Assembly: GCA_950295325.1 (NCBI GenBank) | Contig: OX485803.1 | Coordinates: 31,930,001-31,994,000, forward strand | Direction of reading: 5' to 3' | Source: Polytrichum commune | Taxonomy: Eukaryota; Streptophyta; Polytrichopsida; Polytrichales; Polytrichaceae | DNA length: 64,000 bases | Shown here: positions 1-42,714 of the stretch, piece by piece | Position numbering within the stretch: position 1 is the stretch's first letter | Layout of the letters: every line of letters begins with the position of its first letter | The notes under the pieces: generated by a model | What the model saw: only the letters and a program-made list of their open reading frames with translations | Database searches by the model: none | Told to the model about the DNA's origin: nothing | Program-made: the position numbers and the translations under genes

Positions 1-3000
1 AGCCGTGTGTGTTGTATTTATCTTTGTTATATTGTTGCCAGAGCCATTTTAGTCTTGTAGTTGGGATGGTAATGAGGTGTCGTCCGGTGTCTTCGTATAT
101 ATATGTTAATTCGTTTTGTGTGTGTATGGTGTTTTCTACAGTGGCAATGTTTTTTTCTGGGTTGCATTCTATTACTGATATTTATGTGTATGGTATTATC
201 GTAGGTGATGGTATAAATATTGGATCTTTTGCTTGGATGGGGGCTATGTGTGTTTGTATAATGTTTTTATAGTAGTTGTGTTGGTGTCTTGTGTAGTATT
301 CTTTTAGTAATTTGATGTTGTGTTCGATTACTAGGAGTTGGTTTAGTGGGAAGAATTCGCATTGTGGTAGCCATTTGTTATATGTGGTGTTGTTTTGGAG
401 TGACCATTGGCATAGGTATGTGTTGAATTTTTTTGTTATTTTATACTTATCTTTGGTTTCGTTTGATTTGTTGTTCAGTATACTATGTATGGGGAATCTG
501 AGTGGGTTATTTTTTATGTTGGGGGTGGATTGGGTTGTTGTGGTTGTTGTGGTGGTGGTAGGTGTAATGGATTTTATTGCATGGTGGGTGTTAGTTCATT
601 ATTTTCTGATATGTATCTTGTTTTTAATGTACGGGTTTGGGGGTGCCTGTTACATGGATTTGGGCAGTTTTGGTTGCAACTTTGTTGGCAAAAAGTTATT
701 CCGCTATACGTAGTGCAGTTTTTTTGAGTTTTGTTGGTGTTTTATAATATATTTGGAAGTTTTTTGGTGACATTAAATTTGTACCATTGGGGAGGGAGAT
801 GTGTTTTACTTTATGTATGTTGTGGGTTAAGAGTTTGTATAGTAGTTTTATGGATAGCTCTGGGTTTAGTTGTGGTAGTTCGGTTGTGGCTTGTGTTCTC
901 CATTCATGTTCTAGTTCTGTTGTGTGGAGTTGAAAGTTTGCTTCTATGCTTTTGAGGTGAGCTCCTCCTTTTTTTTTCATTAGGAATAACGTTCGTGTTG
1001 TAGGTGATCTTATACAGTCTTGGTATTTGATTCTTTCTAGGTCATCTGTCCTTCTGTGTTTAGCTAGTATATGTTGTATGAGTCCTTTGTATATTGTTCC
1101 TAATCTTCCGGAGTCGTTTAATGCATTTCTAAGTTGTTCGCTAATACATCTTAGGTAAGCGTTTTTTAATGAGAATGTTTCTAGTCCAAATAGGTCATGT
1201 GGTAGTTGGGTTATTATGTTTGCTGTACATTTGGGAAGACCACATATTATTTTTTGGATACCAATTATTTTTTGTCTAATTTTTTTATGGTTGGTAATGA
1301 ATATGGGACTGCGTAGAAGTTGTAGGCTATACCAACTCTGATGACGGTATCCACCATGCTTATTTTTTGTTTGATTGTAGCTGGGCAATTTGTTAGTTCT
1401 TTGCATTGGTTTATTATTTTGGCTAACGTGATGTGTGTTTGGAGCTTCCATTTTAGTGACGGTACTAATTGTATGCCTAAGTAGATGTAGGGTTCGTTTT
1501 GGTGTAGGATTGGTAGTTGTTGGTTCCTGTAGTTGATGTTTTGGGCTTGGATTTTGGCTTTGAATGTTTCAAGTTTTATTTTTGATTTATTTGGACACCC
1601 TGTGATGGCACATTTTGGCACTCCTAAATCCATTCCGGCCCAATCATAGTATTTATCTAATTTGCTTAGTTGTGTTTGTATTGATTGAAGATTGCTTGTG
1701 ATAGCGGCCAGATCGTCTGTGTATGCTGCCGAGCTGATTGTTAGTTTGGACGTACCAAATGTGTATCCATTCTTTCCTCTTTGTAGCCATCTAAGTAGAG
1801 GTTCTAGGAATATTAGGAAGAGGTATGGGCTGAGTGTGTCTCCTTGTATTGCGCCTCTTTGTATTGGTATAGGTTTTGTTTTTCCGAAGTGTTCACCGGT
1901 GAATATGGTATTGGAGTTTGAATAAATGTTTCCTATTAGGGTCACCGCATCTTCTAGGTATCCTAAGTCTTTTGTTATTGCTAACAGCCTTGCGTGATCG
2001 AGCGAACCGAAGGCATTTTTTAAGTCAATATATAATAGGTATATATCTTGGTTTGTAAATCTTGCATCTTCTAGTGCTGCTATGAGAAGTTGGAGTTGTC
2101 TGGACGTGCTTCTTTCTGCTCTAAATCCTTCTTGATTGTCGTGGAGGATTTGGTGTTTTTCCCCGTATGCTAATAATATATATGTTATGGTACTTGTAAA
2201 GAATTTGTATATTGTGTTTGCGAGTGCAATTGGTCTATGGTTTGATCATTTTGATGGGTCTCCTTTCTTATATAAAAGTATGGTTAGGCTTATTTTCCAT
2301 GATGTTGGGATTTGTTTTTGTTTATAACAGTGGGAGAAGAATATGAAGAGTAGTTTGTGGAAGCTTTCGGACATATTCTTTATGATTATATTGGGAATTT
2401 TATTGGGACCTGGTGTTTTGTTGTTTGCTAGGTTTTTAAGGCAAATGTCGTATGTTTCTCTGTCAAAGTATTTATGTAGAGGGGTTTGTGGGGTTCTTCT
2501 TTTGTCGATTACAAATCCGTCCAGGTCATGCCAAAGGTATTGTCTTACACCGCATGTACAGTATGATGTATGCTCCGGTTGGTGATAACATGTTGGTACT
2601 GTGGGTCTGTTGCTAGTGGATTGTTGTTTGTGAATTTCGTTGGCTATATCTACCGGATTCGTAAGTATGTTCTGGTGTTCATTTGTAATGCAGTTGAGTG
2701 GGGGTGTTTATTGGTTTTTGAAGACTCTTTTGTTAATTTTCTTTGGACTTTTTTCATATAATTGTCTGTATTTGGTTATGGCTTTTTTGATACATTCTTG
2801 GGTGTATTTTGTGGTAATTTTTCGGGCATGTATAATTGCGGTTTTGGTTATTTGGGCTATTGTTTTTATCCATTCTTGTTGGTTAGGTTCTTGATTTGGG
2901 GGAGGTGGGATAATGACTTGAGTGTGATTATGTAGTTCTTCTATTATTGGGTGTGTTGACCAGTTAGGTGAGTTCTTTATGCGGTAGATTGCTTTCCTAA

Positions 3001-3446
3001 TTAGATGATAGGTGGAGAGATGTTTTTTCCATTTTGTTTGTAGTTTTCTTGGTAGAAAACTTCCTTGTTGCGATGTTCGGTTTGTGAGGTCTGGGAGGGG
3101 TGGTGCGCTACACGTGTTTTGGATTTTTTCATAAATTTGTTGAATTAGATGGTCTAGCTTAGTGTAAGATCTTTGCCATTGTACTGTTGTTATTTGGTTG
3201 TTTTTTAATATGTTTGTGAGTTCGATTATTTGTAGTACGTTTTCTTCAACAAATTATGTTTTGAATAATTCGATGTTTGCTTGTGGAATGGGGTTTAGTA
3301 GCCTTGGTGATTTGTTTGTGGTTGGTGGCGTACAGCGGGCTAGTAGTGTATTTGGTGGTATATATAGTGTTACTGGGAAGTGGTCTGAGTTTAGGTTATG
3401 GTCGTTATCGAGAAGAAGTATATGAGCCCATGGAATGGATTCCAGC
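1..3446 (-). pseudogene. LINE A endonuclease C-terminus, reverse transcriptase and pre-RNase H region
   Basis: Directly minus-downstream of the insertion, the endonuclease resumes and ends with LNSDHFPV, the conserved SDH block. The RT follows: LLYKKGDPSK near 2270, HRPIALANTIYKFF, the motif-A stretch LYIDLKNAFGSLDH (about 2040-1996), the motif-B block RGAIQGDTLSPYLF (about 1870-1825) and motif C AYTDDLA (YTDD at 1723-1712). A TGA at 2248-2246 falls at the K-W-S-N-H-R-P-I type position where Trp is expected. Another stop ends the RT frame at 1265, and other stops and frame changes occur downstream. Trp is encoded by TGG elsewhere in the same RT (PTSWK), so the TGA codons are mutations and not a variant code. 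Sequence from 690 to 1 continues as a degenerate post-RT region. Confidence 0.8.
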
Positions 3447-5754
3447 CCTCTCGTGAGGCCACGTCACATTTCCATTTATGTCCGTCCGATTCAGAATTTT
3501 TTCATGTCTGCCGTCGATTTTGAAGTGAAACTTAACCGGAGTTTTTGGCGATGGTTTCAAGGCGACGTTGAATTCAAGGCATCGTTGCTTTCCTATTTAT
3601 GTTGCTCTTGGTTTGCCGTTTAGGGTTTGGCGACAACTTGGAACTTCTGACCAAATGTGACGCTCCTTTTCATCAGTCCCGATCGAAGGCCTTCGATCTT
3701 AATAAGTTACTCTTGTTTTGAGAAATTTGAATTTGTAATGCTGGTGTCTGTAGCTTGGCAATCAATGTCTAATTGCATGCGATATCTTGTGGAGTCCTGT
3801 GGGGTTTGAAGAGACTCTCGAAGAACTCATTTCTCGCTTGTATTTCAATATTATTCTTGCATTGGAGTCTTGTTGCGGCCATATCGAAGTAAAAGATGAG
3901 GGATGTTCTAGGGTTTAGGTTGCATCTTGCTGGATGGCCGAACATTGGATTGGGAGCAGTGCTGCAGTGGAGGGAGTGAGAATGAGGTGTATGATGGGAA
4001 GATAAGCAAAGTACTTTGAAGTTTGGATGTTGAGCAATTAATGCAAACAGCTTTGTGAGAGAATGTGGATTAGCAGGAGCAAAAGTTGAGATCTGCTTCG
4101 GGTTAAGTGTAAGTGCTACAAATGCGAAGTGGTCGTTGTTGCGTTATGATTGCAGGATTGGGTTCAGGTTTTTTCTTGATTAACCAGGCCATGGCGTAGA
4201 GATTAAGGCCTTCGGATTGAAGGTCGTTTGTTGAGTTAAATAGAGTCCATTTCTGTGTCTCTGCTTGCGATAATGTCATACACTACATCAGAATGAGTAC
4301 ATTCTAGAGAAGGTTATGGATGCATAAGAATGTAGATTTACATCAGTCTTGCGTTCAGAATGTAATTAGATATCTCAGCGCAGACGTTCAGATTTTCGTC
4401 AACACTGGACTTTCAGCATCAAATTTGACAGAAACTTAATTGCGAATTCGTTTCTGCAAGTGAAAGTATATGCACATCAAAGCGTTTAGGGTTTTCACAG
4501 AAACTCATGTGCACATCCTTAACGATGTCGGGGTTTCAGATTCTAGTCCTTCAGTACTTCCAAATACCGAATCTTTCGGAGTGCTGGAATCATTCATCTT
4601 CTAGGGTTGGGTCTAAGTCAAAAAATTGCTGAGGTAGAGTTGTAGCGTATCCTTCGTCCTGGAACGTCTCCTACTGTGGTCTGATGTGGAACTGAACATG
4701 AAATATTGAGCTGCACCAACATGAGTTTTGAAATTGGGAGTCATAATCTGAAAGCCCTTTTTGCAGCGAAGAGTGGAAGCTTCACAAGCTAATTGTTATG
4801 TTTCTAAGAATATATGCTGCATTATCTCCCCTTAAGATTTGATTTGGTCTTTTTGGAATAATTTATTGGAAGATGTTGACAGTCTTTAAAGGTCGAATCA
4901 AACCAGCAAGGAATGGTAGCAAGGATGTTGAAATGGCAGCCAAGGTTTCCCTCAAAGTTATGTTCTCTCAAAGTTATGTTTCCCTCAAAGTACACATAAC
5001 TTTCTCACTAGATAATTATAGTACTCCAAATACACAAGATAATTATAGCACTCCAAATACACAGTAGCTTTCTGAGACAGAATATGAAATACACCGTTAG
5101 TACAAGATGATTAGCATATCTAAACCAAGGCTGTAGCAACTTTTCATCATAGGTTTTAACGCTCACATGAATATCTTGTTAACTTTCAAAGTGAAAATTC
5201 TTGTGCTCATTACATGGTCTTCTACGTCTGCCCCAATTATGTTGACTACTTAGCCTGAAAGTTGCGCGATGGATGGTAGAAGCAATATGTATTGGACCCA
5301 GATTAGTACAAGGTATTGATTCACTATAGCATGCAAAATACTAACTGAAATTATTCCACTGTTTCATATTTCCTTAGACGACAAAATGGTGATGGAAGCT
5401 CAGGCTTACTCCTTCACTAATTGAATAAAATCGTCAATGGTGCTTACAGTTAAGAGTGCACGTTATGAAGACCTGGTAGTTGCATATTTAGAAATTCAAG
5501 TTCCATTGCTCATGAAATAGAGCCAGTACCAAACTGAAATCCAGCATCTGCAGTAGAATTAGTATATGCCAGGCCGTGTCGTACTTTCACCACTTACAAT
5601 ATATAATTAAAAATTCCAAGAAAAGAAATTGGAAAAAGAGCATTTCATGAAGTATATTATAACATAACTTTGAACATAACAAAATTATGTTTCCCTCAAA
5701 GTACATGAAGTATGTTATGAAGCATTTCTCTCGACTTCTTCTTTCACCTCTCGT
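3447..5754. mobile_element. 2.3-kb insertion splitting the LINE A endonuclease, 8-bp target duplication
   Basis: CCTCTCGT occurs at 3447-3454 and again at 5747-5754, exactly where the A/C-rich LINE sequence stops and resumes. The intervening 2,292 bp has balanced base composition unlike the LINE, and no long open frame on either strand. An 8-bp duplication is typical of hAT-class transposons, but I see no convincing terminal inverted repeats, and no poly-A tail that would mark a retro-insert. The class is therefore unassigned. The LINE reading frame on the two sides differs by one base, which could be a later indel. Confidence 0.6.
5010..5063. repeat. 27-bp tandem duplication
   Basis: Two adjacent 27-bp units differ at one base (AGATAATTATAG core). 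They lie inside the insertion at 3447-5754. Related AAGTTATGTTTCCCTCAAAG pieces recur nearby (about 4945-4995) and again near 5680-5700. Confidence 0.85.
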
Positions 5755-7168
5755 TTGTGGTTGATGAGTATAGAGCATTATTGGGTGTTTTAATGTAATA
5801 TCCATCTATTAAGCTAGTTTGGTTGTAGTCTTGGCCCCCTTGTCTAGAGTATGAGCTGTTCGTGAGGATATATGTGAGTTCAAGGTTGTTTGTAAATGCA
5901 TGTCATTCTATATCTTCAACTTGTGGTGGTGTTGTTATGTATCCATTTTGTCGTCCAATTAGGGCTATGTCTCTGTTAAAGTCTCCGCATAAGATGAGTG
6001 TGTGATTTGGGTGGTTAGTGTTTTGTTGTGTGATATTTTGTTGTATTATTGATATAAGTCGTATGTCCTCTTCGTGTGACGGCATGTAGATGTGTATTAT
6101 TAGCCATGGTTGTAGGGGTTGGTTGTTTATTTTTATTATTTGTAAGTATGGTGATATTGCAGCTGGAGTGGGGATTTTGGTGATGTTACCGGGATACGCG
6201 TATGATTTGTTTATGAGTGTAAGGAGTCCACCTCTTGCAGGTGTATATGACATTCTTTGTTGTATACATCTTGTTAATGTATGTGTGTTGTTAAATATTA
6301 GCTTGTATTGTGGGAATAGGTTTTGTATGTATTTTGTGGATTTTGTTGCGGTTAGTTTGGTTTCTTGTATAGTGATGATTGCGGGATTGTTTGGTATATA
6401 TGATATAAGTTGGTGGAGGTTTGGTAGGGCTGTATTTAGTGATGAAGCGTTCCATGTAATTAAATGTGTGCTGTGGTTTGTTGTTTGGTTTTCTTGGGGG
6501 TGCAACGTGGGTATGTCGGGTAGTGGCGGGGGGTGGGAATATTCATGTAGCGGGTCTTTACATTTTAAAGCTTCTGTAAGTAATTCATTTGGTAGAAAGG
6601 GAAATTTGTCTATTATTAGCTGTATATTTAAGGGTGCATTACTTTGTTTAATGAAGTTATATAGCTCTTTGTGGATGGTTCTGGGTGGGTTGATAATGTC
6701 TTGATTTGTTTGTAAGAATTGTGTGTATGAGTGCGTGGTTGTGATGTGTCTTTCGGGTGGGTTTTGGAGTGAGGTCATGCGTTCTAGAGCTATGGTTGTC
6801 CAATCAGGTTCCGGTGTTTGTATTAATAAATGATTGCATATTTCTATTACTGGGCTAATTGTGGTAATTAGTGCGTATAGTATGCATGGTGGTGGATGAT
6901 GTTGATTTCTGTAGATGTATCTTGATAGGTGTGGGTAGTTTATAATTGCTTCGTGGTGTTTTGGGTGTGTTAGGTTTATGATAGGGGAGAATTGTTTTGC
7001 TAGATGTTGATATTTAGGTTGTAATTTGATTGTGCATTCTATAAAATACCTTTTACATCTATTTTTATGTGTGGTTGGATGTGTTTGTAGGATGTTGGGC
7101 ATGGGTCCCGGGTTGGTTTCAATGTCCCCACTTTGTAGTATGAGTAAGTGTAAGAAAAATGCTTGCAT
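5755..7168 (-). pseudogene. LINE A endonuclease ORF, N-terminal part with 2A-like leader
   Basis: The frame opens at the ATG at 7168. A short hydrophobic leader ends in SGDIETNPGP (residues 13-22), a match to the D-x-E-x-N-P-G-P 2A signature. A Pro/Thr/His-rich linker of about 200 residues follows, then an exonuclease-endonuclease-phosphatase fold: ITWNASSLN, IITIQETKL (the catalytic Glu block) and LILCGDFNRD (the Asp/Asn block). The frame stops with TGA at 5905-5903, but the same frame continues afterwards with recognisable endonuclease sequence (LIDGYY near 5800), so the stop most likely replaced a Trp codon. The domain is then cut by the insertion at 3447-5754. By analogy with known 2A LINEs, the leader would be released and the nuclease translated as a separate product. 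This copy cannot be functional. Confidence 0.8.
7103..7138 (-). other. 2A-like ribosome-skipping motif
   Basis: The codons spell LQSGDIETNPGP in frame with the endonuclease that follows. All invariant positions of the 2A consensus (D, E, N-P-G then P) are present, and a hydrophobic stretch (FFLHLLIL) lies just upstream, as the nascent-chain half of a 2A requires. 2A-like sequences are established at the N-termini of trypanosome L1Tc/ingi and of several animal APE-type LINEs. I know of no well-known example in a land-plant element. Skipping activity itself cannot be seen from sequence. Confidence 0.75.
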
Positions 7169-7299
7169 TGTGAGAAGGTATTTTCGTCTTTTGTGTGTTG
7201 TGTACTATTGGTTTTTATTTTTCTTTCTTTTGATGTTTAGGTTTGTTATGTGTCTTGGGTGTTCAGTGGTTCTTTTTCGTGGTTGTTTGGAATATGTAG

Positions 7300-9240
7300 T
7301 TATGTTTTTTTTTGTTTTTTTGTTTTTTTGTTTTTTTTTGTTTTCTTAATTTTGGGCGAGGCCGGTAGGCCGAGTCCGTCTTAGGTGGTTTACGTGGATT
7401 TTGTTTTGTGTTTTTTTGTTTTGGTATTTGGGGGGATTTTTTGAGAGGGGTGGGTTGGTGTTGTGGGTTGGTGTTTTTGTAGAGATATGGTGTGCTTTTG
7501 TTTGTTTCCTTGTCGTCTTTTGTGTTTGGTATGGTTTTGGTTTTGTATGTGTGTTTTTTGTATTTTGACTGTGTGCTTTGGTTATGTTTGTTTGTTTCTT
7601 GTGTTTGTTCGTATGATTTATGTTTGTTTTTGTTAAGGTTTTACGTATATTATTTTGGTTTTGTTTTTTGTTTATTTGTTTTATTTGGTCATTGGTTTGG
7701 AGAGGTGTTTTGTTTTTATTGTTGTGTTTATTGTTTATAATATTGGTTGTTTGTATTTGTTTATGGTTTTCATGGATTTTGTTATTTTGTTTTGGGCTAT
7801 CTATCTTATTTTGTTTATTATATTGTTTTGTTCGTATGAGTTTTGGGTTTGAGGCATAGTTTTCGGTGGGTTTTGAGATTTGGGTGGGGTTTGGGTGTTT
7901 TTGGCTTAGTTTTATTTATTTTTTGGTTTTTAATGAGTGCATGTTTGGTTGCGGTGAGAGGGTTGTTTGTGGTGGGTGTTGTGTTTTCTATTTGTTTGGA
8001 TAAGCAATATGTGTGTTTTGGGTACTCTTTGTATGTTGGGTGGAATCTGTATTTTTGGTGAGGTCTATATTTTGGGTGCAACATGAATTTTGGGTGGGGT
8101 TTGCATTTTTGGTGTGTGTAGTATTTCGTTTGAGTATTGTCTTTGTGTGTGTGTAAGGTAAGGTAATTGTACTTGTATTCCATATGGTATTTTGGGCATT
8201 GTAGGGTACTATGCTTAGTATGTTGGTAACTGGTATTATAGAGTACGGGTTTTGTTGTAGGTGTGTGTATGGTACTAGGGTGTGGTCGGGTTTCTTTGTT
8301 TTTTGATGGTTTGTCTTTTTTTGCATAGGAGGCGTATTGTGGTTGTAGAGTAGCGTAGATGTTTGTATTAGAGAGATACAAAAGAATCTTTAATCTCTTA
8401 GGGGATGCAGTAATTAAGTTGATGGGCCTTAGTTGATAGGAAGTGTTAGATGGTCTATGACTTGGTGTGTTAGTTGTGGTTTTGTTTTTTTGGTATGTTT
8501 TTGTTTTGTTGTCCTTATCTTTTATCTTTTTTTGTTTTTTGTTTTTTGTATTGGCGAGGCCGGTAAGCCGAGCTCGTTTTAGTTTATTATGGTTTTTGTT
8601 AATGATTATCATGGGTTTTGAGTATTTTGCATGGTATTTGTGTTTTGGTTTGTGGAAATTTTTTGGATGGGGTTTATATTTTTGGTGGGGACTATATATA
8701 TATATTTATTTATTTATTTATTTATTTATTTTTGGGGACTATATTTTGGATGTAATATGTAATTTATGTGGGGTTTGTTTTTTGGGTGTGGATAGTATTT
8801 CGTTTGAGGTTTGTCTTTGTGCGCATATAAAGTAAAGCAATTGTACTTATATTTCTTATGGTATTTTGGACATTGTAGGATATTGATGTTAGCATGATGG
8901 TATCTAGCATTATAGAGTACGGACTTTGTTGTAGGTGTATAGTATTTGGTTTGAGTATTGTATTTGGCTGGAGTATAGTATTTGGTTTGAGTATTGTATT
9001 GGGCTAGAGTATTGTATTTGGATGGAGTATAGTATTTGGTTTGAGTATTGTATTTGGCTAGAGTATTGTATTTGTGCACGTATAAAGTAGAGAAATTGTA
9101 CTTGTATTCCATATGGTATTTTGGACATTGTAGAGTACCATGACTAATACGATGGTACCTAGTATTTATTCTATGTGTAATACTATATCCAATACTATGT
9201 CTAAGTACGTGTATATATCTAAGATAGTATTGAGGTAAAT
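7300..9240 (-). repeat. A/C-rich leader-like region with repeated modules
   Basis: On the minus strand this is A/C-rich sequence like LINE A. A GC-rich motif (plus strand GGCGAGGCCGGTAGGCCGAG) occurs at 7355-7380 and, slightly changed, at 8553-8577, each followed in the minus direction by an A-rich tract. A second module of about 120 bp occurs three times (about 8148-8272, 8820-8942 and 9075-9170). Open minus-strand frames (8612-7818 and 9271-8726) encode Tyr/Lys/Thr/Asn-rich, low-complexity polypeptides with a recurring CPKYHMEYKYN motif. Whether these are translated or merely stop-poor because of composition is unclear. The region may be the LINE A 5' leader or a separate degenerate repeat. 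Confidence 0.5.
8953..9078. repeat. 18-bp minisatellite, seven units
   Basis: Units of the form GAGTATTGTATTTGGCTA repeat about seven times with a few substitutions. Because 18 is a multiple of 3, the minus-strand frame stays open and encodes a Tyr-rich hexapeptide repeat of the KYNTQT / KYYTPA type. Confidence 0.85.
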
Positions 9241-9267
9241 AATTTTTTTTTCCCCGGCGATTTGTGG

Positions 9268-11055
9268 TCAATCCACATTTGGCAGGTTTTTTATCATAAG
9301 ATTTGGGTTTACCATCCCAGTAATTTGTTGCATCCCGGTAAGTGCCATGGTTAATGTGTTTTGGATGTCCAACATTTGCTTCTTCAATTTTTCGTTGATG
9401 TCATCTACATAGTTGTGGGCCTCTTTGACTATGTCATCCTTCAAGACCTTCATCTCTTCGTGTAGTTCAAGCTTGAGTTTCTTGTTACCTTCTTCAATGG
9501 CCTCCTTCATGATGGTAAAAACTTCGTTTTTGGTGGCATTTTTCTCTCCTTGGTTTTGGTTTTGGATTGCTTCAATGGTGTTCACCAAGCAAGTGTTAGT
9601 ATCTTCAAATCCAAACTTGATCAACAAATATCTAGAAGGTTTGTCAATATCATCAAGACTTCTACGGTGTGGAGTGATTTCCACATGATAAACACCAATT
9701 TTTTCCTCTTTTCCTACAAACTTTTTGTATACAAAGGGGTTGAGACATTCTACATTTGTACTACCATTGTGTCTAATTCCATATTGCTTATGGAACCAAA
9801 TGGAGACAACATTCTTGGTTCCAATTATCTTGCAAATTTCAAGAGATGTGTCATCTATGCTCATCAAGATGGGAAGGTTGTAGAAGGTGAGGGTTAGAGC
9901 TTCTTTCCTTTGTTTTTGCTCCAAGGTGAGAGAAGGCCCTTTCTTCACTTACCCTTCCAAAATTTCATGGTGTGTTGCAACTTGGAGGTCTTGAATTTTC
10001 TTGGCTTGTGAGGGGGTTGGTGCAACAATGTAAGCATGGTTGTTGGAAGTGCCCTTTTGCACCTCTACAATCTCAAATTCATGACCTCTCCTAAAACTAT
10101 TCTCTAAAACATCTTTGAAGAGCATGTGTGAAGAGACATCAATCAAAGTTTCACTAGTGATTTTGATTGAAAGGTTGTTGTTCCTAGCTATGGAGTGGTA
10201 AGTCTTACATACCTTTCCAAGAGTACCTTGGGTTGATTTGGGGTCCAATTGTAGAATGAATGGTCTAAGTCCTTTCAACTAGGCCACCCCATCAATTTCG
10301 GGGTGGAGAAGGTGGAGTTTGGCAATTCCCGCCCAAATTCCTTTCTCCCCACCTCTCTTAACACTCATGCACATGATAGATATGGGCTCAGGTATTTGCA
10401 TCAATTCAAGTCTTTTCCTTACTAGTTCTTTCACATGGTTATGGAGGAGAGGGGTGTTGGGTAATTGAAATTCAATAGCAACATGGAAGTCCAAAGAGAG
10501 ACATGTATTGGGATCGATTGGGATATCATATGGGATTTGCGTTAGGTTGAGGTGTTGTCCAAGGACACCATCCTCTCTCTTATCTGGGTAATAGATTTGG
10601 GGTATCCTTGGGAAGGATATTGTCACCCCCTCCATTTCTTCCGCTTCCTTCTTTGGTACACCCCTAAGTACCCTATCTTCGATGGATTCACCATCGAAGA
10701 GCTCATCCAACCCCTCTTCCATAGCCAATTTCTCCATGTTAGTGAAACCATACCAAAAATTTTGACGGAACCTTCGTTCAGGGAAAATAGAATTTACCTA
10801 TGTGACTTGTGGGCGTCGTTGTGGGGTTTGGTGTAGAGATTTGCTCGGTGTTGTCTTCTCCCGAGTCCTCTTGGTGCCTATTTCCTTCGCAGCTTGATTC
10901 TCCTTTGCCTTCTCTGCTAAGAGCCGCATGAGGTTTTGTGAGGGTGTGTCTACCTCCATGTTGTCCTCGTTGCTTGAGTTGCCTCTATATGCGGAGGGTG
11001 ACGCCATGTTGGGAATTAGGTGTGTTAAGTGGTGCAGTTGGGCTTCTACTGTCAC
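9268..11055 (-). pseudogene. Unrecognised 595-codon frame with three in-frame stops (possible retroelement ORF1)
   Basis: One minus-strand frame runs from the ATG at 11055 to TGA at 9268 with no frameshift, interrupted by stops at about 10800 (TAG), 10281 (TAG) and 9951 (TAA). I do not recognise the family. The N-terminal ~85 residues are charged and low-complexity, followed by a segment with GVPKKEAEEMEG. The middle is globular, and the last ~230 residues contain an RRM-like stretch (TLTFYNLPILM ... YLLIKFGFED) then a coiled-coil-like acidic/basic helix (ELHEEMKVLKDDIVKEA). RNA-binding plus coiled coil is the typical layout of LINE ORF1 proteins. Just after the stop there is an A9 run (9251-9243), consistent with a retro-insert tail. 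It lies upstream of and co-oriented with LINE A, but its base composition is different, so membership of LINE A is uncertain. Confidence 0.55.
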
Positions 11056-11079
11056 AATTTTTTTTTGTAGCCCCTTTAT

Positions 11080-11795: not shown

Positions 11796-11870
11796 GGCGT
11801 GTCTCTGGGTTACAGACGAATCTTAAAGACCTCTGCCCCTTAGTTTTCTGGGCAAAGGTTGTTATCTGTG

Positions 11871-11985
11871 GGCTTAGGGTGTCCACACTGATTTCCTAGT
11901 TTTCAAGAGTTTGGGTTTCGGGTGCTAAGGCTTAGGGTGTCCACACTGATTTCCTAGTCTCAGGAGTTTGGGTTTTAGGTGCTAA
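11871..11985. repeat. 58-bp direct duplication
   Basis: Two adjacent copies (11871-11928 and 11929-11985) begin GGCTTAGGGTGTCCACACTG and differ by a few bases. Confidence 0.85.
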
Positions 11986-13660: not shown

Positions 13661-13767
13661 TAGGCCGCCCACACATACTGGTGGTGGGCAGCAGTGAACG
13701 GGCGAACTCCGTTCATTGCCACCAGTTTGTGTGGGCGAGAACCGGGGAGAGCCGGTAGTTAGTCCAC

Positions 13768-19138: not shown

Positions 19139-19147
19139 TGGTAGACA

Positions 19148-19680
19148 CCCTAACATTACCAAACCCAATGGTGTTAAATGTTGTGTTGAAATCGAGGCAC
19201 GGCAGTGGGTCAGCCCCTCGGGGGTCGGGTCCTGGCATGCCTGCAACAGAGCCTTTGCTGGCCCGGGCCGTAACGACACCGTGGCACGCCAGGCTGCCCG
19301 TGCCCAGCTTCACATCACATCACCTTCCATCATGGCATCCCCATGCCGTGAGGACCATGTGGGGTTCCTAACCTAATCACCCTAACCTAATCACCCTTGG
19401 GGACAGTGTTTTGGGGTTCCTCTTTGAAAGACCTCCATCCAGCCATGGCTGTTGAATCATTGTAACTTGCACACTTCGGATTTCTGCCGCAATGACTGTC
19501 TTGTATCAAGTGATGCGATTGCAACAATGATGCACTGAAGGGATCAGAGGTGATCAACGTTTGGAGCGCTTCTTCCCAAGCACGTTGGAACCATGCCTCT
19601 CATTGATCATAACCTAGGCATTTAGCAAAAAGTGTAGATTTCCGTCATAATGTATTGTCTTCTATGTAGTGAAGTGATTG
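19148..19680 (+). repeat. MULE-1 left terminal inverted repeat
   Basis: About 530 bp matching the reverse complement of 29595-30069 at roughly 90% by eye. It has a small extra duplication (CCTAACCTAATCACC, twice near 19370-19400) and an extra segment near 19550 not present on the right. It includes CGGATTTCTGCCGCAATG, which is also found near 61681 in the second MULE. Confidence 0.88.
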
Positions 19681-27397: not shown

Positions 27398-29594
27398 ACA
27401 AGTAAGGAGGAAATAGAATAAAGATGCAGCAAGAAGATTGTAACATGCGACATGTTACATGCGACACGTTACACTAACACTATATATTTCAAACAAAGAC
27501 TGAATTTGCCTGTCTCCACATGGCCCTGAATCAATCTGTTCACATTGAGCATAAATATATACAACAACAGCACATGAAGTCATATTTATCTGTTGGCCTA
27601 CAAACAGTCCAGTAATGGACTATGCCAATACAAGAAAATTGTAACAAGGTACTACAATATACTTTGTATCCATCCAAGGAAATGCAAGTGACACATCTAT
27701 CCATCTCATTACATTGTAACTTTCATGCACTGCTTGACAACATTAAAATGCTAAGTTGATGCAAATTTGTAATAGATAAACCTAAAATTTTTGAGGAATG
27801 ATTGAATCAGCTCTATGAGATGTCCAATGGCTAAATCACCATTCTTATGTGCCACAATCTGATGTAATTCCAGCCTGAGGTAACTCAGAACCCTTCAGGG
27901 AAAGTTCTCAAGCACGTCATTGATAATTTGTGTACCAGCATTGCCATGCATATATGAATAAAAAATTCAAGCTTCCTGTACTCTTGGATCAAGGAAAGCA
28001 TGTCAGTCCATAATCATATGTCTTGCAGGAATTTGAACAATTGAATGTTCATGGTTCCTGAAGGAGGACAATGCATGCCAAATGTAGAACATGCTAGAAT
28101 TTTTTCAAACTAATGAATAAAAGACAAAATAAGTATATAACCTTTTCAACGCAAATTATATAGGGCACAGTATCACTGGCAGAGACACGATGGCCATTCT
28201 GCTTCCGCCTCAAAGCAACCTGATTGCAACAAACATAGTCACAACATATTTTAGAGGACCAACCTTCCAGAGTAAGATTGTTGAATAACAAAGGTAAGAT
28301 ATTTCACTCGGTTTGCTCAAGAAGTACCTAAGATGTAACCAGTATAACCCCTTTGTCTTCATCTAATTTGGAGTTGTCTTTTCCACGAAAAAAAGTGAGC
28401 TTCAACATGGAAGAGAATATGAGATTATGGGAGAAAACAACCTTTTCAACGCAAATTACCTCTTTATACATTAGAGACTGTATAATCAGGAAGTGACTTA
28501 CCTTCCATAACTAAGAGTGTATGGCCTCTACCACTTCAAGATTGACTACTTATCAAACTTTCCACCTCAATCAATCATATTAAAAAGTGATACAGAAAAA
28601 ATGTTCACTTACAGAAAAGAGTCAGTGGATCGAGGTATAAAATCAAGGAAAGCATCCCGATCAGCAATCAATGCATCATCAAATATCTCCTGCAGATTAC
28701 AAACTTGAGCACACATCCTGTAGATGCCTCTTTGTCTACCAGCACAAACCTACATATGTAGCCTGTCTAGTGTAGAACCTTATATTGAAGAAATTTTGAC
28801 CTTGTTGATTTCACATAAATTCCGGTAAACCTTACATTTTGTCTCTTGTGATGATTTGAAAGAATGACAGTTGACTTGTTGAGAGAGTGGCTTTCTCAAG
28901 GTATGAGAGCAAACAAAAGTCACCTTCATTTTGGTAGGCAAATCAGCTGTTGGATTCCCTGGGCCTCCATCCTGTAGGGCAAACCATGAATGCACAAACC
29001 CTAAACCCTAAACCAGCGGATCGCATAAAAACTAGCCGTGTCCACCACATTGAAAATTAGGGCTAATACGGAGGCGATTGCTAAGCGAGACCCTAGCCGA
29101 CGGGAAGGAGAGCTTTGAGAACAAAAAAGCAAATAAATGAGGTGTACATCCACATTGGAGATAATAAAACTTCCAAATTCATCGCAGCAACCGCGTACCA
29201 AACTGATTCGCATCAAAACACAACGACTTAATCACCACACCCGAACCGACCGAGGACTCTAGCTTCTTGAGGATCTTGTCACATGTATAAAATGGGACGC
29301 CTAGTGGCTCATGGCAGACATAGAGAAGCAAGCAGATATATGCATCAAGATTGACATTCAAGAAATTACTGCGCAAAATGCACACAGATCGGAGTGGTTC
29401 CGCAAAAAGAACTCTCTAGATACCGATGTTCAATAATCTTCTCTACAATGCTCTTCTTTACCCTTACACAGAAACTTCAGCTAAACCAGCAACCCTAAAC
29501 CAGCAGGCTTGCTGTGACTACTTCTTCTCCATGTGAAGTTGGATTTACATTTAGTAACTTTAGTAACACTACAAATGGCAGCACAACTTGTTAC
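27398..29594 (-). other. Probable captured host gene segment, mostly non-coding
   Basis: Several exon-sized minus-strand pieces with plausible splice sites are present. They include about 28690-28613 (EIFDDALIADRDAFLDFIPR) and about 28968-28921 (GGPGNPTADLPTKMK), as well as the DNA polymerase alpha-like exon at 28142-28219. A plus-strand telo-box-like CAAACCCTAAACCCTAAACC near 28997 would fall upstream of or in a 5' leader. AACCTTTTCAACGCAAATTA is repeated exactly at about 28140 and 28440. Confidence 0.4.
28142..28219 (-). pseudogene. Exon resembling DNA polymerase alpha catalytic subunit
   Basis: A 78-bp stretch with AG before it and GT after it encodes 26 residues starting VALRRKQNGH and containing DTVPYIIC. 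From memory of the family, B-family polymerase alpha has a comparable HVQVAL..K....GDTVPYIIC segment late in the polymerase domain. A single exon this short is suggestive and not decisive. Its location inside a MULE fits gene-fragment capture (Pack-MULE behaviour). Confidence 0.5.
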
Positions 29595-30069
29595 ATAGAA
29601 GACAGTCCATTTTGGCGGAAATCTACACTCTTTGCTAAATGCCTAGGTTACGATCAATGAGAGGCATGGTTATGATCCCTTTAGCGCATCATTGTTGCAA
29701 TCGCATCACTTCATGCAAGACAGTCCATTGCGGCAGAAATCCGGAGTGTGCAGGTTACAATGATTCAGCAACCATGGCTGGATGGACGTCTTCCAAAGAG
29801 GCACCCCAAAACACAGTCCCCGAGGGTGATTAGGTTACCTTGGTGGGTGGATGCCGGCCATGGTCCTCATGGCATGGGGATGCCATGATGGAAGGTGATG
29901 TGATGTGAAGCTGGGCATGGGCAGCCTGGCGTGCCACGGTGTCGTTACGGCTGGGCCAGTAGAGGCTCTGCTGCAGGCAGGCCAGGACCCGACCCCCGAG
30001 GGGCTGACCCACTGCCATGCCTCGATTTCAGCACAACATTTAACACCATTGGGTTTGGTAATGTTAGGG
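29595..30069 (-). repeat. MULE-1 right terminal inverted repeat
   Basis: Inverse of the left repeat, ending GGTAATGTTAGGG at 30069 directly before the TGGTAGACA target duplication. It differs mainly by substitutions and a few indels, indicating an old insertion. Confidence 0.88.
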
Positions 30070-30078
30070 TGGTAGACA

Positions 30079-34959: not shown

Positions 34960-37900
34960 TTAAAGGAGTAATGTGACCTCTACTAAAGGAGTATTTGAGC
35001 ACAATCACAAGAACAATGGACCATCCTAGCAATTGTTTAGGCCGATATGATATGCAATGGTATGATATGATATGACCACAAAATATATTATAAATCACAC
35101 CTTGTCCCAATCCATTGATTTGGTTCTTGGTCAACACCATACAGGCTTAAGCAATGAGTCCGTAACAGGATATTGGTCATTTGAGCATACTTTCTTCCTC
35201 AACATTGCAACTTCAAAATTTGAATGATAATACAAGTGCTTCAATGAATGTGAATTTTGATGAATTGCATGTAATCCGAAAGGCACTTCTTATCAATGTG
35301 TGAACTTGTTATAGAAGTTTTAAAAGCAACACTTTAATCAAACTTTGACATAATACAATGACATACATATGATAGATTGTGTCACTCTACTTAAGGTTTG
35401 CCTCTAGAGATAAAAGCAGGCCTACGATTCTTGGTTGATGATTTTTACCTTATTGACAACCAATTTCACATATTTATCATGTTCCTCTTCAAGTAACCCC
35501 AATTGAACCTCATATGATTGCCAACACCAATGAATGTGTTGCCATTGTCACTCGACTAACATCAAGAACAAGAATAGCATTAGTTGGGAACTCGTTCAAT
35601 GACTATCTTGTTTAAGTAAGGTTGACTCTTGAAATGGGAATGTGGTACAATATACTTTCAAGTTGGTAGAATGAACCAAATTTTGATTATTGTCTCATGT
35701 TACATTTGTTAGAAAATTTGATGCCGGAACTAGTTGCAAAGACCTTAAATGAGTTTACCGGACATATTTGAAATGAAATAATCACAAATCCATACAAGGC
35801 AAAAATATCTAAGATCAACATCCCTAAGAGGTACAGTTGTATGCTACAATTTCCTCCCATTGTAAGACAATAAAGGGATTTTTTTTTTTCATTAGCATTC
35901 AATGTGACACTCTTACCAAACCAAAAAAAACAACGATGACGACGACAACAACAACAACTTGCATAACTTTGTGAAATGATCTAAAAAACTGACCTTATTT
36001 GACAACTATTCAGTTCATAACATTATTCATATTTATAACAATGTTATGAGGGACTGATAGTATTCCATGTAGTATTCCTAGATATTCCCCACATTGAATT
36101 TGAATGTGGCAATGAAGCTTGCAAAAATAACACAAAGAATAACCAACCATCATTTTAAAATAACGATATTCTTCTACTTTCTTAAAGTTTAGCATCAATC
36201 TACCGGTGCTCTCAGAGACTGGCTAACATTGGAGAACTTACGATCTTGACCAGTTGTTACCAGTTCCACTAAGGTAGATGGGTCTCAAATGGTTACTCTT
36301 TCCAACTAGCCCACTCATCCTATGATGTGAAACATGACGTTAGTTAGAGACGGTTCGCAAATTCAAATCGAGCTTGTAGCCAATTTTCTCATAAATTTGG
36401 AGCTCATATGAATATCTTGTCTATTATCAGTGTGAACATTTTTGTGCTTATTAAATGGTCATACAAGTCCCCCTTCCCCACAATTATGGTGACTATTGAG
36501 TATAGAGTGGTTATCATATTTTGAGCATGTAGTCCAATTTCTTTTAAACACATGTCTTTTTGGTGTCCCTATTCTTGGAGCCACACCAAACCACATACCA
36601 TTCAAATATAGGTGTGTAATTAAGAGAAACAATGAAATTAGGCACTTCTACCTTATCCTATATATTATTGGGGGTGGTTGAGGCAAGGCTAAGGCAAAGC
36701 AGAGGTGGAGCAAGGTCACGCACATCGCAAATTGTTGGTGTTGAGGTGGAGGTCTTCGGGAAAGGTCTTCATCTTGGATAACTTAACTTGATAATTAGGA
36801 AATTTAGGGTTTCCATCGATGGATTGGACTTGTGATGTATGCTATTTAAATTTGGCTTAAGACCTATCTCTTAGTTGATTCCACTATACACACACTAACA
36901 CTAGAGTTGTGGCTTGTTGCATTGCAATATGGACTCCTTTATGTCATATGGGATGTGAATTCATAATATTAATAATATATATTAAGGGCTATGCGATGCT
37001 CCACCCAACCATTTGTGATGATTGGTATATTTATTCATAATTTAATATTTATATAAAAATATGTATTAATTGAAATATGGGTATTTGAGATTGTTTATAA
37101 GTTGTTTATTTCAATATTGACATGTACCAAGGGGGTCAGTGTAAATTATCCCCTACATGTTCACTTGAGGATCATTTACAAAATAATAATAAAATATCAT
37201 GTAATATTACTTTCTATAAACTCAAATGAAAGAGTTTAGGGGTAAAGAAATTGTTCAAAAGTGTTGGGGTTTCAAGTCAAGTCAAAGATATATTATAAAA
37301 TACAAGATATAGGGCCTCCTCCTTTAGCTCAAGCAAATGAGTATCTCCAATAGTGTTCACTAACAAAACATGAAGACATCCAACCACTATCTTGCTTGTG
37401 GATGCACAAATCCAGAGATACACATTCACGTAATGATGATACAAAGAGGGAGATTTGAAAATTATATCACAATTTGTGATTGCTATTAATTTATCTTGGA
37501 CACACAAACATAGGCTAAGTCATGACATTAAAATTTGAGATTGCACAAAATGGTCAATTTTCATAGCTTGATGTTGAAACTAATGCTTAACCCTCACTTT
37601 AATAACACCAATCTCTAATTTTATCAACGTGTTCAACGCGACAATCAAGAGGAGATACAAACACAATGATAGTTTCTTGACTAGTTGATACTCAAGAACA
37701 CAAAATTGTTTCATTGCACACATCAAAAACATGGAAAAGACTATCCAACAACAAATTAACTTGGAAAAGACTCTAATTTGGACATGGAATTTGCAAGCTT
37801 GCACATTCTTTTGAACAAAGCCTTGAGTAATGTAGGTACAAAAATTGCAACGACACATACAACAAGCATCAATTCACGGTTTTCACCACCATTCTTCTCC

Positions 37901-38089
37901 ATCTTCAAAACAACAACTTTGATTTCATGTTTTTGTTTTCACCACAAACACTAAAAGTTTGAGAAGCATACTCTAATATCATGGTCAACAAAAAGCTCCA
38001 CCTAGATGGTTGTGGTGTTAATTTTTGAATTTTTATGTTGGAACAATATTTCAGTGTAAATAGTGCCCTTTTTGAACTTCAGAATTGTA
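34960..38089. other. Intergenic AT-rich, no gene seen
   Basis: No open frame above about 95 codons and no domain recognised. AACACCTATATTTGAGTGGTAT near 33178 resembles the reverse complement of 36598-36618, a small dispersed repeat. Confidence 0.5.
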
Positions 38090-40250
38090 AATGATTAAGT
38101 GTGAAAGGGGCTATGGACTGGAAGTTCAGAAAGCAACCGTAAAAGGCTATGGTCTGATTCTAGGAGGTGCCATGAGAGAATATAGGCCATTGTTTTCAGA
38201 AGGAAGGACACTTCTTTTGGGTGATATAGCCTTGGGGAGAGAAGTGAGTGTGTGGCTGGGAGAGGATAGAAGTCAAGTTTTTAGTGTTGGATATATGTAA
38301 GAGAGTTACAGATTTCCGAGGAGGGATTCCTCGGTAATTTCCAGGCTATAATCTGAGTGTTTGATCATACTATAATTTTCTATCCAGGGTGTGTAACTGG
38401 ATCAGTTTGTGTAATTAATTAGGCCATAGACTGTGCAAGAGAGTTTCACCTGTCGGCCGATAATTGAATATATGAATTTTATTATTCACTGGGTTTTGAA
38501 TCTGTCTCAGTTGAATCTCTGTAGGTACATGTTATAGTCTGCTGGAATCTTGAGTGCTGAGTGGACAATGAGAGAAAATGTCCTTCCAGTCCATGGTCTG
38601 TGTGTATGAAGGCAATCTCCAATGTTTATCTCAGGACAAGAAATTTGTTGTATTTAAATTTGATATCACGAGATGGTGATTTATGAAATTATGGCTTTAC
38701 TCTATTGACTCATGAGTGTTGAAGAAATGAGTATATTTGGTGCACCGAATGTTGAGATTGTTATCCAAAATTTGGAATGGAAGTTAACTTGAGAGAGAGA
38801 GAGATTACGGTTAATATTTTCAGTTAATAGTTTATCTCAAATAATATTTGCTAAACCAAGAGTTCGTGCGGTTCAGCCTGGGAATCACATCTTCGGTACT
38901 AGGAGTAATTGCTACAAAAAATTGAGGGATGGCTTGAGTGCAATTGAAACTCTGTGATCTCAGATATGTAGTTGCATTATTGTATTGATTGTTCGTTAAA
39001 AATTTATCACAGGGACAATTACCTGAATTGAATAATGTTTATTCCGAGAAAGCATTGAGTTATAAGTTGACGATTGTCTGGAAGATATGTGAGGGAGAGA
39101 ACATAGCCTGTGTTTGAGGGCCATAGACTGTCTGTAATCACATTTGCAAAACCGAGCGTTTGTGCAGCTTTCATGTTGGTAGCATTGGATTAAATCAAGA
39201 ATTGTCACTGTGAAGTTTGTAAGAATGGATTATCTGTACACGAATATCTTGATTCCTGGAAATGGAAAGCCCTGATGCAATTGTCTGAGATTTTATGCCT
39301 AAGCACAAAGGTCATAATTTGTGTTTAGTAATGTTGACCTTGAAATGGACTTAATACATATTCAGGACATTGTCTGATAAAGAATTCCCTCGGCCAGATA
39401 TTAACCAATACTATAGCAATTGTCTGCGAAAGAGCAAGGCTCTGATATTCCTTGCAGGGCCGGTTGCGGTCGATCTGAAAGGACCAAGGCTATAGACTTC
39501 GTGATATTAAGGAGGGAACTGGGGCGTGTCCAACTGGTGGACAAAAGCTCAGCAGATACTGGGAAGGCCATAGACTTCAAAGGGTAATCTGAAAGTACTT
39601 CCAAAGCCGAACAGACCTGACCATTGACAGCATGGCAAGTAAGCTTGATATTCACTTATAATATGAAGAAGTAAAGTGAAATTAATCAGAACCTGAAATA
39701 AAATGAACTTAACATACCATTGAGTTAAGTGAATGTGCCGGTTACTCATCTCATGATTGATTAATGGAGTAAAAATATGAATAACATTGGTTGAACTGTA
39801 ACTTGACTAAATTTAATTCTTAAGCACAACCGTGATAAAGTTATGGCTTGGATAATATAAAAGATTAATATATCTATATATGTGGTTTGGCCTATTGACA
39901 CAACCCGAGGATGCTCCTGTTAATTTGACTAAGCCTAGGTAAGGATTATTGCCAGACAACCTAATTTAAATGATAAGGTTAATCAAAGAATTTCAACAAT
40001 CCCGAGGGGATGACAGTACTGACTATTTCAAGTTTCATTAAAAAGGATTAATTAAATATCAGGCTATTGACGATATCAAAGGGCCCTCGACTTTGATAAG
40101 TAAGACAAAAATGGGAAACTATTGCAAAAGACTATTGTCGATGGCGAGCCCTATGATTGTGCACCGCACCTGGTCCAATTAAAATGAACTCACTGCCAAT
40201 CTATTGCCTAGGAAAGTAGAGTGAGGTGTGAGACTGTCACATTTGCATGT
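38090..40250. other. Intergenic with a recurring CATAGACT-type motif
   Basis: GGCCATAGACT or GGCTATAGACT variants recur irregularly (for example about 38422, 39119, 39488 and 39566), with related GGCTATGGTCTG at about 38145. No coding sequence is supported. This may be an ancient, strongly diverged repeat. Confidence 0.4.
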
Positions 40251-41074
40251 ACTGACATAGAGTGGTTTTTAGAGTTTTTATCCCTTACCCGTAATCCAAT
40301 TGTCAGTCCTAATCCAAAGTGAAGTGATATAACCTTGTGTTTTCCCTAATAAATCTTATCTAAGACACCTAGATGCTACATGAATCACCTTTTAAGTCTT
40401 CCCTGAGTGTTTCCCTGGGTTTTGTTTGTAACCAAAAAGCTAACTACAATGGCCAATTGATTTCATCAAAGGGAAGAAGACATCCACGCTTCCAGATGTC
40501 TAGCATAAGGTAGCTAGATGGGCCTAAATCGAACACAACAATAATTTGGACACCTATTACAAATTCACATCCTAATGACATAAAAGAATCCAAGTTGTAA
40601 CACAATGAGCCACTCTAATGAACAATAGCACATATATAATGAACAATGCGATGATGATGGTGAGGTTGTCGCCCTACCATTTCGAAAGAAAAGGATCATG
40701 CTAAAATGATGTGTCATATGCATGAGTGCAAAGGATTGGGACAACACATGCCCATACCATTGCTCCAACGCTCCCTACCACAAACTTACCTATTGTTACC
40801 CATTGTTCTAGAAGGTGGGGGTGGGGGACCACATGTACAAGGGGTTGGGTTAGTATTTCCATTGTTGGTTGTACCAATTATATGCACCACACTTTACACT
40901 TAATTCCACATATGGCAATAAACTTGAGGTGGCCAAGTACTAGGTAATGGCCATCAGGAGTGCCATTACATGATGTAATCGGAATTTGCACGGCGAGCCC
41001 ATTAGGACAAACCACGTGGATTTCATTCACATCTGGTAATGATGCGATTGGCATCCATTACCTCACATCAATAA
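40251..41074. other. Intergenic, no gene seen
   Basis: No recognisable coding sequence before the LINE fragment begins. The exact 5' truncation point of that LINE is not visible. Confidence 0.4.
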
Positions 41075-42714
41075 TTTGCATACACAACCAAGTAAATCCA
41101 ACAACGAACTTACAAACCCCGCATGAACTACAAAAAGTCCTAAAGAAAACAACTAATACACACATAAACACCTACCCCATCAAATCCAGCCCCACTCACT
41201 ACAACGTTAAATTCTTCAATGCATGGAAAAATGCCCCGAAAATAAACACACACCACCCCCCTCCCAAGAACACCATTACAACACCCCTACCAACCATATA
41301 CAATCACATTCATCCTCTTAAATTTCATGCACAACAATGCATATACACGGATGGGTCATTTATCCCACCCTCCAAAAACCCAAAAGGCCAAATAAAGGGC
41401 AACACCACAAGTTCAATAGTATATAGCCCCAACAACAACACCCAATTATCATAAAGACTACCCGGATACCAAAATATCCTAAGAGTAGAGCTCAACGCAA
41501 TACTCATTGCTATCAAAACCATACAAACACCCAACTAGATGCACACATATTTACAAACAACCTTAATAACATATTCTTAATCAACAACCACATACAACAC
41601 CCAACATCCCAACACCACCACCCAGATAAATTACTCATAGCAGCCATTGTACATCAAATACATTGGACCCCACACACAATCCACATATACAAAGTGCAAG
41701 CACACTTAGGCATTACTAGAAATAAAACAGCAGACACGCTAGCCAATGAGGGGACACTAAAAGAAAAATCAACCACTACACCGCACATACACATAGCTCA
41801 CCCTACCCCCTACTGGCTAGTAATTTGCCCAACATTCACACATGACGGAGCCATCTGCAACCTTTGCACATTCATAACAAAAGAACATGGAAACTGTGAA
41901 GCTAAATCAACCAAAAGAAAATTCCCATACGTAGACAAATGGTTATCAAACAAACAAATAAATTATAAACTCTCTAACCACTTTTGGAAAAACCACAATG
42001 TGTTGGATGCCCAAAATTACCCAAACTCTAAAATTTAGATATGCCGAACACATGGGTGACCATAGGAAAAATATCTTTTGGCCCCTCACATACCAAAATC
42101 CCAACTGTACACTATGCCATAACAACGACAGAGACACGTGGCCCCACCTCTTATCAATATGCGAAAATCCGTATCTAAAGGGCTTATGAATTGCACGACA
42201 TAACAAGGCCGTACACCTCATTATCCAGACATTACAAGCCAACAAAAACACCCAGTTCTTCACATTGACCAACGCATGCAATATGAATAATCAACCTCCA
42301 GACCAAACAGTCCTAGAATGGCTCCTTAAATGCACATGCCCACAAAGAACATGTCAATGCTAAGCCAAATTAAGATTGAATATCCTATGCATAATCGGAG
42401 CCCCAAACTAAACACAAACACCTATATCACCCTCTCCTAGACACACAATCCAACTCATCGAATTCACATATTGCCACGATAGATTCCTTGAACAAGCCCT
42501 CATGCACAAACACACCGAATACGACCCACTAATTAACACCATACAAAACAATGGATGGAAAACCAGCCCCCTCATTACCGTCGCAACCGGGGTAAGAGCT
42601 ATACACGAACACTCCATAGATCAGCTCAATATACTAAAAATCCCAAAATCCAACATTAAAACCCTCATGAAAAGTATACACCAAAATGCCATCAAATACC
42701 TCACACATACCTAG
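41075..42714 (+). pseudogene. LINE A-type 3' fragment: RNase H, zinc finger and candidate restriction-like endonuclease
   Basis: The coding strand is A/C-rich like LINE A. RNase H signatures are IYTDGSF (41341), RVELNAILIAIKT and VQAHLGITRNKTADTLANEG (about 41694); the third acidic position reads FTNN, where an Asp is expected. CTLCHNNDRDTWPHLLSIC (about 42106) is a CCHC-like finger. The C-terminal block has AKLRLNILCIIG (about 42364), LIEFTYCHDRF (about 42454), HKHTEYDPL and VATGVRAIHEHS, ending at the stop at 42714. Its pattern matches R2/Dualen-type PD-(D/E)XK endonucleases, with the PD pair apparently changed to LN here. Stops at about 41452, 41536, 42361 and 42409 and a frame change near 41537 make it a pseudogene. 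It is 5'-truncated. Confidence 0.7.

Follow-up and report, generated by a model that had tools for sequence, protein, structure and literature searches.

We analysed a 64,000-nucleotide stretch of the genome of the moss Polytrichum commune (NCBI GenBank assembly GCA_950295325.1, contig OX485803.1, positions 31,930,001 to 31,994,000 of the forward strand), hereafter the window (G000:C1:31930001-31994000). The window holds two inactivated copies of a large non-long-terminal-repeat (non-LTR) retrotransposon, or long interspersed nuclear element (LINE), that has been active recently and of which hundreds of copies and fragments occur in the 408-Mb genome to which all whole-genome counts below refer. 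A first-pass annotation, made from the sequence of the window, had described a left fragment with an apurinic/apyrimidinic endonuclease (APE) and a reverse transcriptase (RT), and a right fragment with ribonuclease H (RNase H), a CCHC finger and a candidate restriction-like endonuclease (RLE), and had proposed that together they represent a single family with the two-nuclease layout of Dualen/RandI.

The left copy occupies positions 1-10797 on the minus strand and reads, in order, a first open reading frame (ORF1), a 2A motif, APE and RT. ORF1 survives as two remnants whose sequence blocks match the ORF1 of other copies by eye: a 172-amino-acid (aa) open frame at 10279..10797, with LNLTQIP and G(I/L)AKLHL blocks and no Pfam match, and a C-terminal remnant of 226 aa at 9268..9948, with a NVECLNPFVYKKFVGK block and a lone Pfam match that is weak and unrelated (E 0.16). 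The start of ORF2, at 5903..7204, holds the 2A site and most of the APE (PF03372, E 1.2e-7, above the cut-off, residues 249-412); the 2A (StopGo) core, GDIETNPGP, was found by pattern match at 7104..7129 (C1:31937104-31937129), inside a 433-aa frame reading MQAFFLHLLILQSGDIETNPGP. A 2,345-bp insertion, foreign to the element, splits the APE at 3409..5753, its flanks joining at the same base of the reference copy L002. The C-terminal end of the APE (NSDHFPV) and the APE-RT linker resume at 2708..3463, as judged by translation and by a nucleotide match to L002 over 3-3408, and are followed by the RT at 1265..2245 (PF00078, E 6.6e-23) and, 3' of it, by a chromodomain-like stretch (YLCQW...W) in a 137-aa frame at 185..595, the homologous region of which, in other copies, has mostly PDB chromodomains among its profile matches. 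The ORF2 part at 1..3408 (blastn against L002, 79%) continues past the window edge to C1:31927239, and it is there that the copy's own RNase H (Pfam on L001, E 1.5e-11) and its own RLE (C1:31927756-31928784, by tblastn of a subfamily A RLE to L001) are found. This ORF2 is broken by frameshifts as well as by the insertion. Short tandem repeats of 18-base units fill positions 8052-9193, between the ORF1 and ORF2 remnants.

The right copy, on the plus strand at 41061..42783, is the 5'-truncated end of an ORF2 of subfamily B (blastn against L005, 78%). Its RNase H (41347..41753; PF00075, E 0.0018) scores 18.9 bits, below the Pfam curated cut-off of 25.8, and is divided between frames, with TDGS in one and the C-terminal half in another. 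The CCHC knuckle and the R2-type RLE follow at 41754..42764, where tblastn of the L007 RLE domain aligns in three pieces, the longest at 71% over 233 aa, and the nuclease is decayed, with stops, one frameshift and a change of PD to LN. The LN previously read at the PD position is real, lying in frame within AKLRLNILCI, but reflects decay, PD being invariant in 11 of 11 copies. A 767-bp insertion foreign to the element (42784..43550, the gap between blastn pieces) interrupts the 3' untranslated region (UTR), which ends at 43551..43690 (blastn to L005, L006, L007, L034 and L035); no target duplication was found for this right copy. The domain content ascribed to each fragment stands, APE then RT with a 2A core on the left and RNase H, CCHC knuckle and RLE block on the right, but the coordinates had been drawn too narrowly: remnants of ORF1 extend the left copy as far as 10797, and the right one covers 41061-42783 plus 43551-43690.

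The two copies are not, as had been supposed, pieces of a single family member, for their RLEs fall in different subfamilies: the RLE of the right copy shares 71% identity with L007 of subfamily B and 37% with L002 of subfamily A, and that of the left copy, just outside the window, shares 84% with A and 39% with B. Such a difference is what one would see if the proposed layout were an artefact of two unrelated, compositionally similar LINE families in one window, and the first-pass annotation had itself treated membership of different families as fatal to its claim. That outcome did occur in a weak form, at the level of subfamilies, but APE and RLE share one open frame in copies of either subfamily, and an RLE follows in the left copy beyond the window edge; these observations refute the artefact, which we regard as exceedingly improbable, and the claim of a two-nuclease layout survives. 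Elsewhere in the genome the same order, APE-RT-RNase H-RLE, is found in intact single frames of 2305-2790 aa. The ORF2 frames of L002-L007, from the two subfamilies, measure 2779, 2790, 2663, 2305, 2422 and 2372 aa, these being copies picked for long frames, some of which end at the fetched end, and the stop-to-stop reading including sequence 5' of the true start. The domain order is common to both subfamilies, as judged by Pfam on three ORF2 proteins and by an alignment of seven copies (in which L030 and L035 start after a stop upstream of the APE, and some 50 residues following the YADD motif are missing from L006), and runs 2A, APE, RT, chromodomain-like stretch, PCIF1-like fold, RNase H, CCHC, R2-type RLE.

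A full-length copy of subfamily A is 13.3 kb long and comprises ORF1, ORF2 and a 3' UTR ending in a hairpin, recognised by eye, and a microsatellite-like tail. Over 13,320 bp, L003 and L004 share 99.67% identity; both begin ACAAACCCGC and end in (TCTA)n. Genome searches gave 123 scored matches to the RT of 1873 candidates and 150 to the C-terminus of 3647 candidates, while a 19-base pattern from the 3' end of subfamily B, allowing up to 2 mismatches, matched at 604 places against 9 in a reversed control. Two near-identical copies, L011 (C5:35.13 Mb) and L012 (C2:42.79 Mb), share sequence 5' of the point where two sisters start within about 11 bp of each other; a longer 5' end, transduction or a segmental copy are candidates for this shared upstream sequence. 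The 5' truncation points of B copies seemed at first to cluster, but this was traced to the choice of short-frame copies and rejected.

By its predicted fold, the C-terminus of ORF2 is an R2-type restriction-like endonuclease and may cut DNA; the match by sequence profile is weak, and it is the fold comparison that carries this assignment. The RLE model, of 337 residues, has a mean predicted local distance difference test score (pLDDT) of 64, with ten-residue blocks from residue 121 onward averaging 61-88. When compared with the PDB using Foldseek its first seven entries were all R2 (E 6.2e-9 to 7.1e-3), and in a second structure comparison R2 scored Z 12.6-14.6, followed by a bunyavirus cap-snatching endonuclease at Z 8.2. 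Across 11 of 11 aligned RLEs from the two subfamilies, C118, C121, H131, C136, R148-H149-N150, P208-D209, E236, K252 and K255 are invariant, so that both the structural matches and the CCHC, RHN, PD, E and K residues uphold the R2-type nuclease proposed at first pass. Pfam matches to individual members of the RLE alignment are scattered, comprising DUF2043 (E 0.0007, 3 of 11), Pro-kuma_activ (0.002, one member) and a SwaI-like family (0.1, one member).

The APE lies upstream of the RT in the same protein, its TWN, QET, GDFN and SDH motifs are invariant in 7 of 7 copies, and all seven PDB matches to its profile at E <=0.1 are exodeoxyribonucleases. In three ORF2 proteins, RVT_1 and RNase_H were above cut-off in all three (RNase H as PF00075, E 3.3e-12 to 1.3e-14) and an APE model in two, and all seven aligned copies keep the YADD motif and four acidic residues of RNase H unchanged.

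ORF2 is under purifying selection, in a pair of A copies up to the RT and in a pair of B copies throughout. For the A pair the ratio of nonsynonymous to synonymous substitution (dN/dS) was 0.29 in the window of the alignment that holds the 2A and 0.03-0.23 after it, as far as the RT, where the second copy's piece ends; for the B pair it was 0.04-0.36 in all computable windows after the 2A window. Of the windows that overlap the RLE in the B pair, two were computable, at 0.22 and 0.18, and the others were saturated (proportions of nonsynonymous and synonymous differences, pN 0.08-0.11 and pS 0.76-0.78). Before the 2A, dN/dS was about 0.46, the alignment being poor there.

Inserted copies lie scattered, with no common target seen among them, and their 3' ends are short tandem repeats of the (CTAT)n or (TTTTC)n-like kind and not poly(A). 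Of 25 B copies read to both ends, 13 are flanked by target duplications of 8-16 bp, compared with 2 of 600 mismatched flank pairs; copies were left out when their match extended to the end of the fetched sequence or began within 4 bases of it (L036 and L047 from the first 20; L073, L074, L076, L077, L078 and L082 from the second 13). A 14-bp duplication at L071 was seen by eye and missed by the rule. L004 has an 11-bp duplication; none was found for L003, nor by eye for C1_17.95 and C1_22.1. Eleven of the 13 duplications begin TA or TG, a preference for a T-purine start that is tentative because the T may be common to the tail. Scattered targets with duplications of this size and start resemble APE-type LINEs and not the fixed-site R2, and would suit an element in which cutting is left wholly to the APE and the RLE is kept as a DNA-binding or structural part. 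However, pure binding would not need catalytic residues, and in both subfamilies the RLE keeps its PD, E and K in every copy aligned; the two computable RLE-overlapping windows of the B pair are under constraint. We consider an APE acting alone to be unlikely.

Between the RT and RNase H lies a part resembling PCIF1 (CAPAM), the cap adenosine N6-methyltransferase, which it matches in fold and in its SP..C and FGS.G blocks. The Pfam family PCIF1_WW was matched in 7 of 7 members at E values up to 5 (best 2.2e-13), the six best structures for the predicted model are all PCIF1 (E 2e-5 to 8e-5; Z up to 9.5), and a search with a single sequence returned PCIF1 at E 0.00021. All 150 scored genome matches to PCIF1_WW (697 candidates), counted irrespective of their surroundings, are above the curated cut-off, and there is no match in any of 14 control genomes. 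Unlike PCIF1 itself, the domain sits inside a retrotransposon protein and its NPPF motif is replaced. NPPF is the catalytic motif of PCIF1; at its position the seven aligned copies read HPPN, HPHN, HPHT or FPTD, with the register taken from an L002-PCIF1 alignment. Methyl transfer is not expected of the moss domain because NPPF has been replaced, and, since the catalytic motif is absent, it is probably a binding module. The neighbouring YLCQW..W stretch is likely a chromodomain: seven of its eight PDB profile matches are chromodomains (E 0.04-0.58), the eighth being PCIF1, and a structure comparison returned CHD1 at Z 5.4. ORF1 has no recognised domain. In L004 it is about 1400 aa long and open from the 5' end, with its start not fixed; no Pfam family was above cut-off in 5 of 5 ORF1 proteins, two families each being weakly matched by one member, and comparison with the PDB gave one match only, to a coiled-coil-like stretch at E 0.76. 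A resemblance of ORF1 to an RNA-recognition motif (RRM) is an impression only.

The association of a 2A with the element, also noted at first pass, extends well beyond the window. The 2A core, (D/G/C/N)(V/I)ExNPGP, is present in frame, and recoding activity is predicted from it. A GDIxxNPGP pattern has 420 genome matches and none in a reversed control. In 8 of 13 copies read, 2A and APE share one unbroken frame (L002, L003, L004, L006, L007, L012/L029, L033 and L034); in L005, L030, L031, L032 and L035 a stop or frameshift separates them. Position 14 of the motif (p14) is K in L003 and L004 and H in L007 and L033, instead of E, within these frames. Of 100 matches listed out of the 420, all from C1 and the beginning of C2, 60 have E at p14, 19 have Q, 14 H, 5 K, one R and one Y, and p15 is mostly P, T, S or L among the matches listed. 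In published assays of other sequences, H at p14 was more than 95% active and E14Q 26-56% active, and a bias at p15 toward P, S, T, L and others is given in the same source (PMC12846837). Tandem sites also occur. Fourteen pairs of neighbours less than 1.5 kb apart, 13 of them in the same frame, are found among the 100 matches listed, but come from related copies and so are not 14 independent events. In L032 (C1:66446701-66455000) a single 595-aa frame contains four 2A-like sites, one of them reading RDIELNPGP, and in L030 (C2:51458601-51466700) a single 470-aa frame contains three. Most of the sites in these two copies have a similar lead-in (H.K.P.....YYTWNNSTLILL), with about 75-140 aa between sites.

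The moss element recalls several known systems without coinciding with any of them. D(V/I)ExNPGP is known from APE-type LINEs of trypanosome (L1Tc), sea urchin and other animals (PMC4981915); the moss element carries its 2A close 5' of the APE with a hydrophobic lead-in, and differs from those named there in its plant host and in that a single frame may hold as many as four 2A-like sites (L032). It resembles R2 in its CCHC-RHN-PD-E..K C-terminus, in the fold (Z 14.6) and in its RT, the best PDB matches of which are R2. R2 elements are not known to have an APE or RNase H, and insert at one site in the ribosomal DNA (rDNA); the moss element, by contrast, has both domains and inserts at scattered sites. 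In an RT tree with three R2 rows and five rows of L1s from the same genome, the family forms its own clade with 100/99 support; with long branches, no Dualen row and no outgroup, the tree shows monophyly and not placement. Mean RT identity is 25% to R2 and 23% to the genome's L1s. L066, tried as a group II intron outgroup, had no usable RT on reading. Relatives in viral and prokaryote contigs were sought, and none was confirmed by tblastn. Further elements of the same genome (L060-L065) are L1-like by eye, and their long open frames reach 749-1066 aa within the sequence retrieved.

Dualen was reportedly described from Chlamydomonas by Kojima and Fujiwara in 2005, and is said to contain a cysteine protease. 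No protease family was recognised by Pfam in three ORF2 and five ORF1 proteins of the moss element, which in this would differ from Dualen, although a divergent protease could escape such scans. Comparison with the algal elements was by published description of their nucleases, RNase H and 3' tails; the moss element has an in-frame 2A, sometimes several, a PCIF1-like fold and a chromodomain-like stretch, and its host has LEAFY genes and is not a green alga. The PCIF1-like and chromodomain-like parts, the lack of a recognised protease and an RT that forms its own clade, nearly as far from R2 as from L1s, could be accommodated by an independent fusion, within the plant lineage and outside Dualen/RandI, that joined an APE to an R2-like core or the other way round. 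Against this, the published accounts give Dualen/RandI both an APE and a PD-(D/E)XK nuclease (PMC3636483, PMC4640811), and the moss element matches that description in having the two nucleases and RNase H in one protein. A 2013 table lists RandI for green algae with (ATT)n and (CTATTT)n tails, its other rows being flowering plants and mosses not being covered (PMC3747384), and the short tandem repeats at the moss 3' ends are alike in not being poly(A). One ancient origin is the simpler account, and a separate fusion seems to us quite improbable. We regard the element as Dualen/RandI-like by layout and published description, and as a candidate member of that clade.

Our preferred reading, to which we assign a probability of roughly 0.8, is that both fragments are dead copies of a recently active superfamily of two-nuclease non-LTR retrotransposons in a plant, which would move as follows. 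Ribosomes would skip the Gly-Pro bond at the 2A site or sites, freeing leader peptides from the ORF2 protein, which would then bind the tail of its own RNA. The APE would nick a loosely chosen site and prime reverse transcription there, RNase H would remove the template, and the RLE would most likely cut the second strand or otherwise hold the target, while the chromodomain-like and PCIF1-like domains might steer the particle to chromatin or capped transcripts. Whether a land-plant LINE goes so far as to have two endonucleases that each cut one strand, one to four StopGo sites that release small leader proteins, and a captured chromodomain and dead cap-methyltransferase fold that read chromatin or capped nascent RNA is a more speculative matter, and we hold it doubtful.

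Several observations weigh against the preferred reading. The RLE profile, when compared with PDB sequences, matches R2 only but at E 0.48, so that a profile check of the C-terminus, as suggested at first pass, returned the expected entries by a weak match, and confidence in the predicted models is moderate (mean pLDDT 64 and 52.5). The ORF2 of L003, scanned whole, has no APE Pfam match, though the motifs align; PCIF1_WW in L007 reaches 27.4 bits against a curated cut-off of 31.1; and the chromodomain matches in Pfam, in 3 of 7 members with a best E of 0.016, are all below the curated cut-off. Selection on the RLE was analysed in one B pair. The rule for target duplications was set after the first 18 copies had been inspected (10 of 18, against 0 of 306 mismatched pairs, compared with 3 of 7 new copies in the second batch), and 12 of the 25 copies have no duplication by that rule. 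Finally, how APE and RLE would share the work is itself inferred, and cutting by the RLE is a prediction.

A two-nuclease layout known from green algae can now be tested in a land plant, and a plant family with long open frames and near-identical copies allows the role of two nucleases in one element to be asked. The two nucleases of Dualen have been cited as an argument that APE-type LINEs originated when the RLE was replaced (PMC4640811). The element is also a source of natural 2A-like sites within a plant genome; a 2026 survey reported no evidence of natural 2A use by plant viruses (PMC12846837). It also represents a retrotransposon with a PCIF1-like domain, found at at least 150 places in one genome. 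Among the matches listed from the open-access literature, judged by titles and the starts of abstracts, there was no land-plant RandI/Dualen and no LINE with PCIF1; this does not prove that none has been described, since Repbase and the majority of subscription papers lay outside that search.

Some further features of the genome and window were recorded. SAM_LFY matches occur at four places in the genome and LEAFY DNA-binding exons are present, one reading DYLFDLYEQC, the aspartate of which we take to be of the moss type of LEAFY. LEAFY is not known outside streptophytes, and these genes place the host among them and, with moderate confidence, among the mosses. Within the window, positions 19146-19668 and 29592-30071 form a pair of inverted repeats separated by about 10 kb, individual pieces of which are 92-98% complementary, and positions 62602-63929 contain open frames that by eye resemble a plant transposase of the Mutator-like element (MULE) type.

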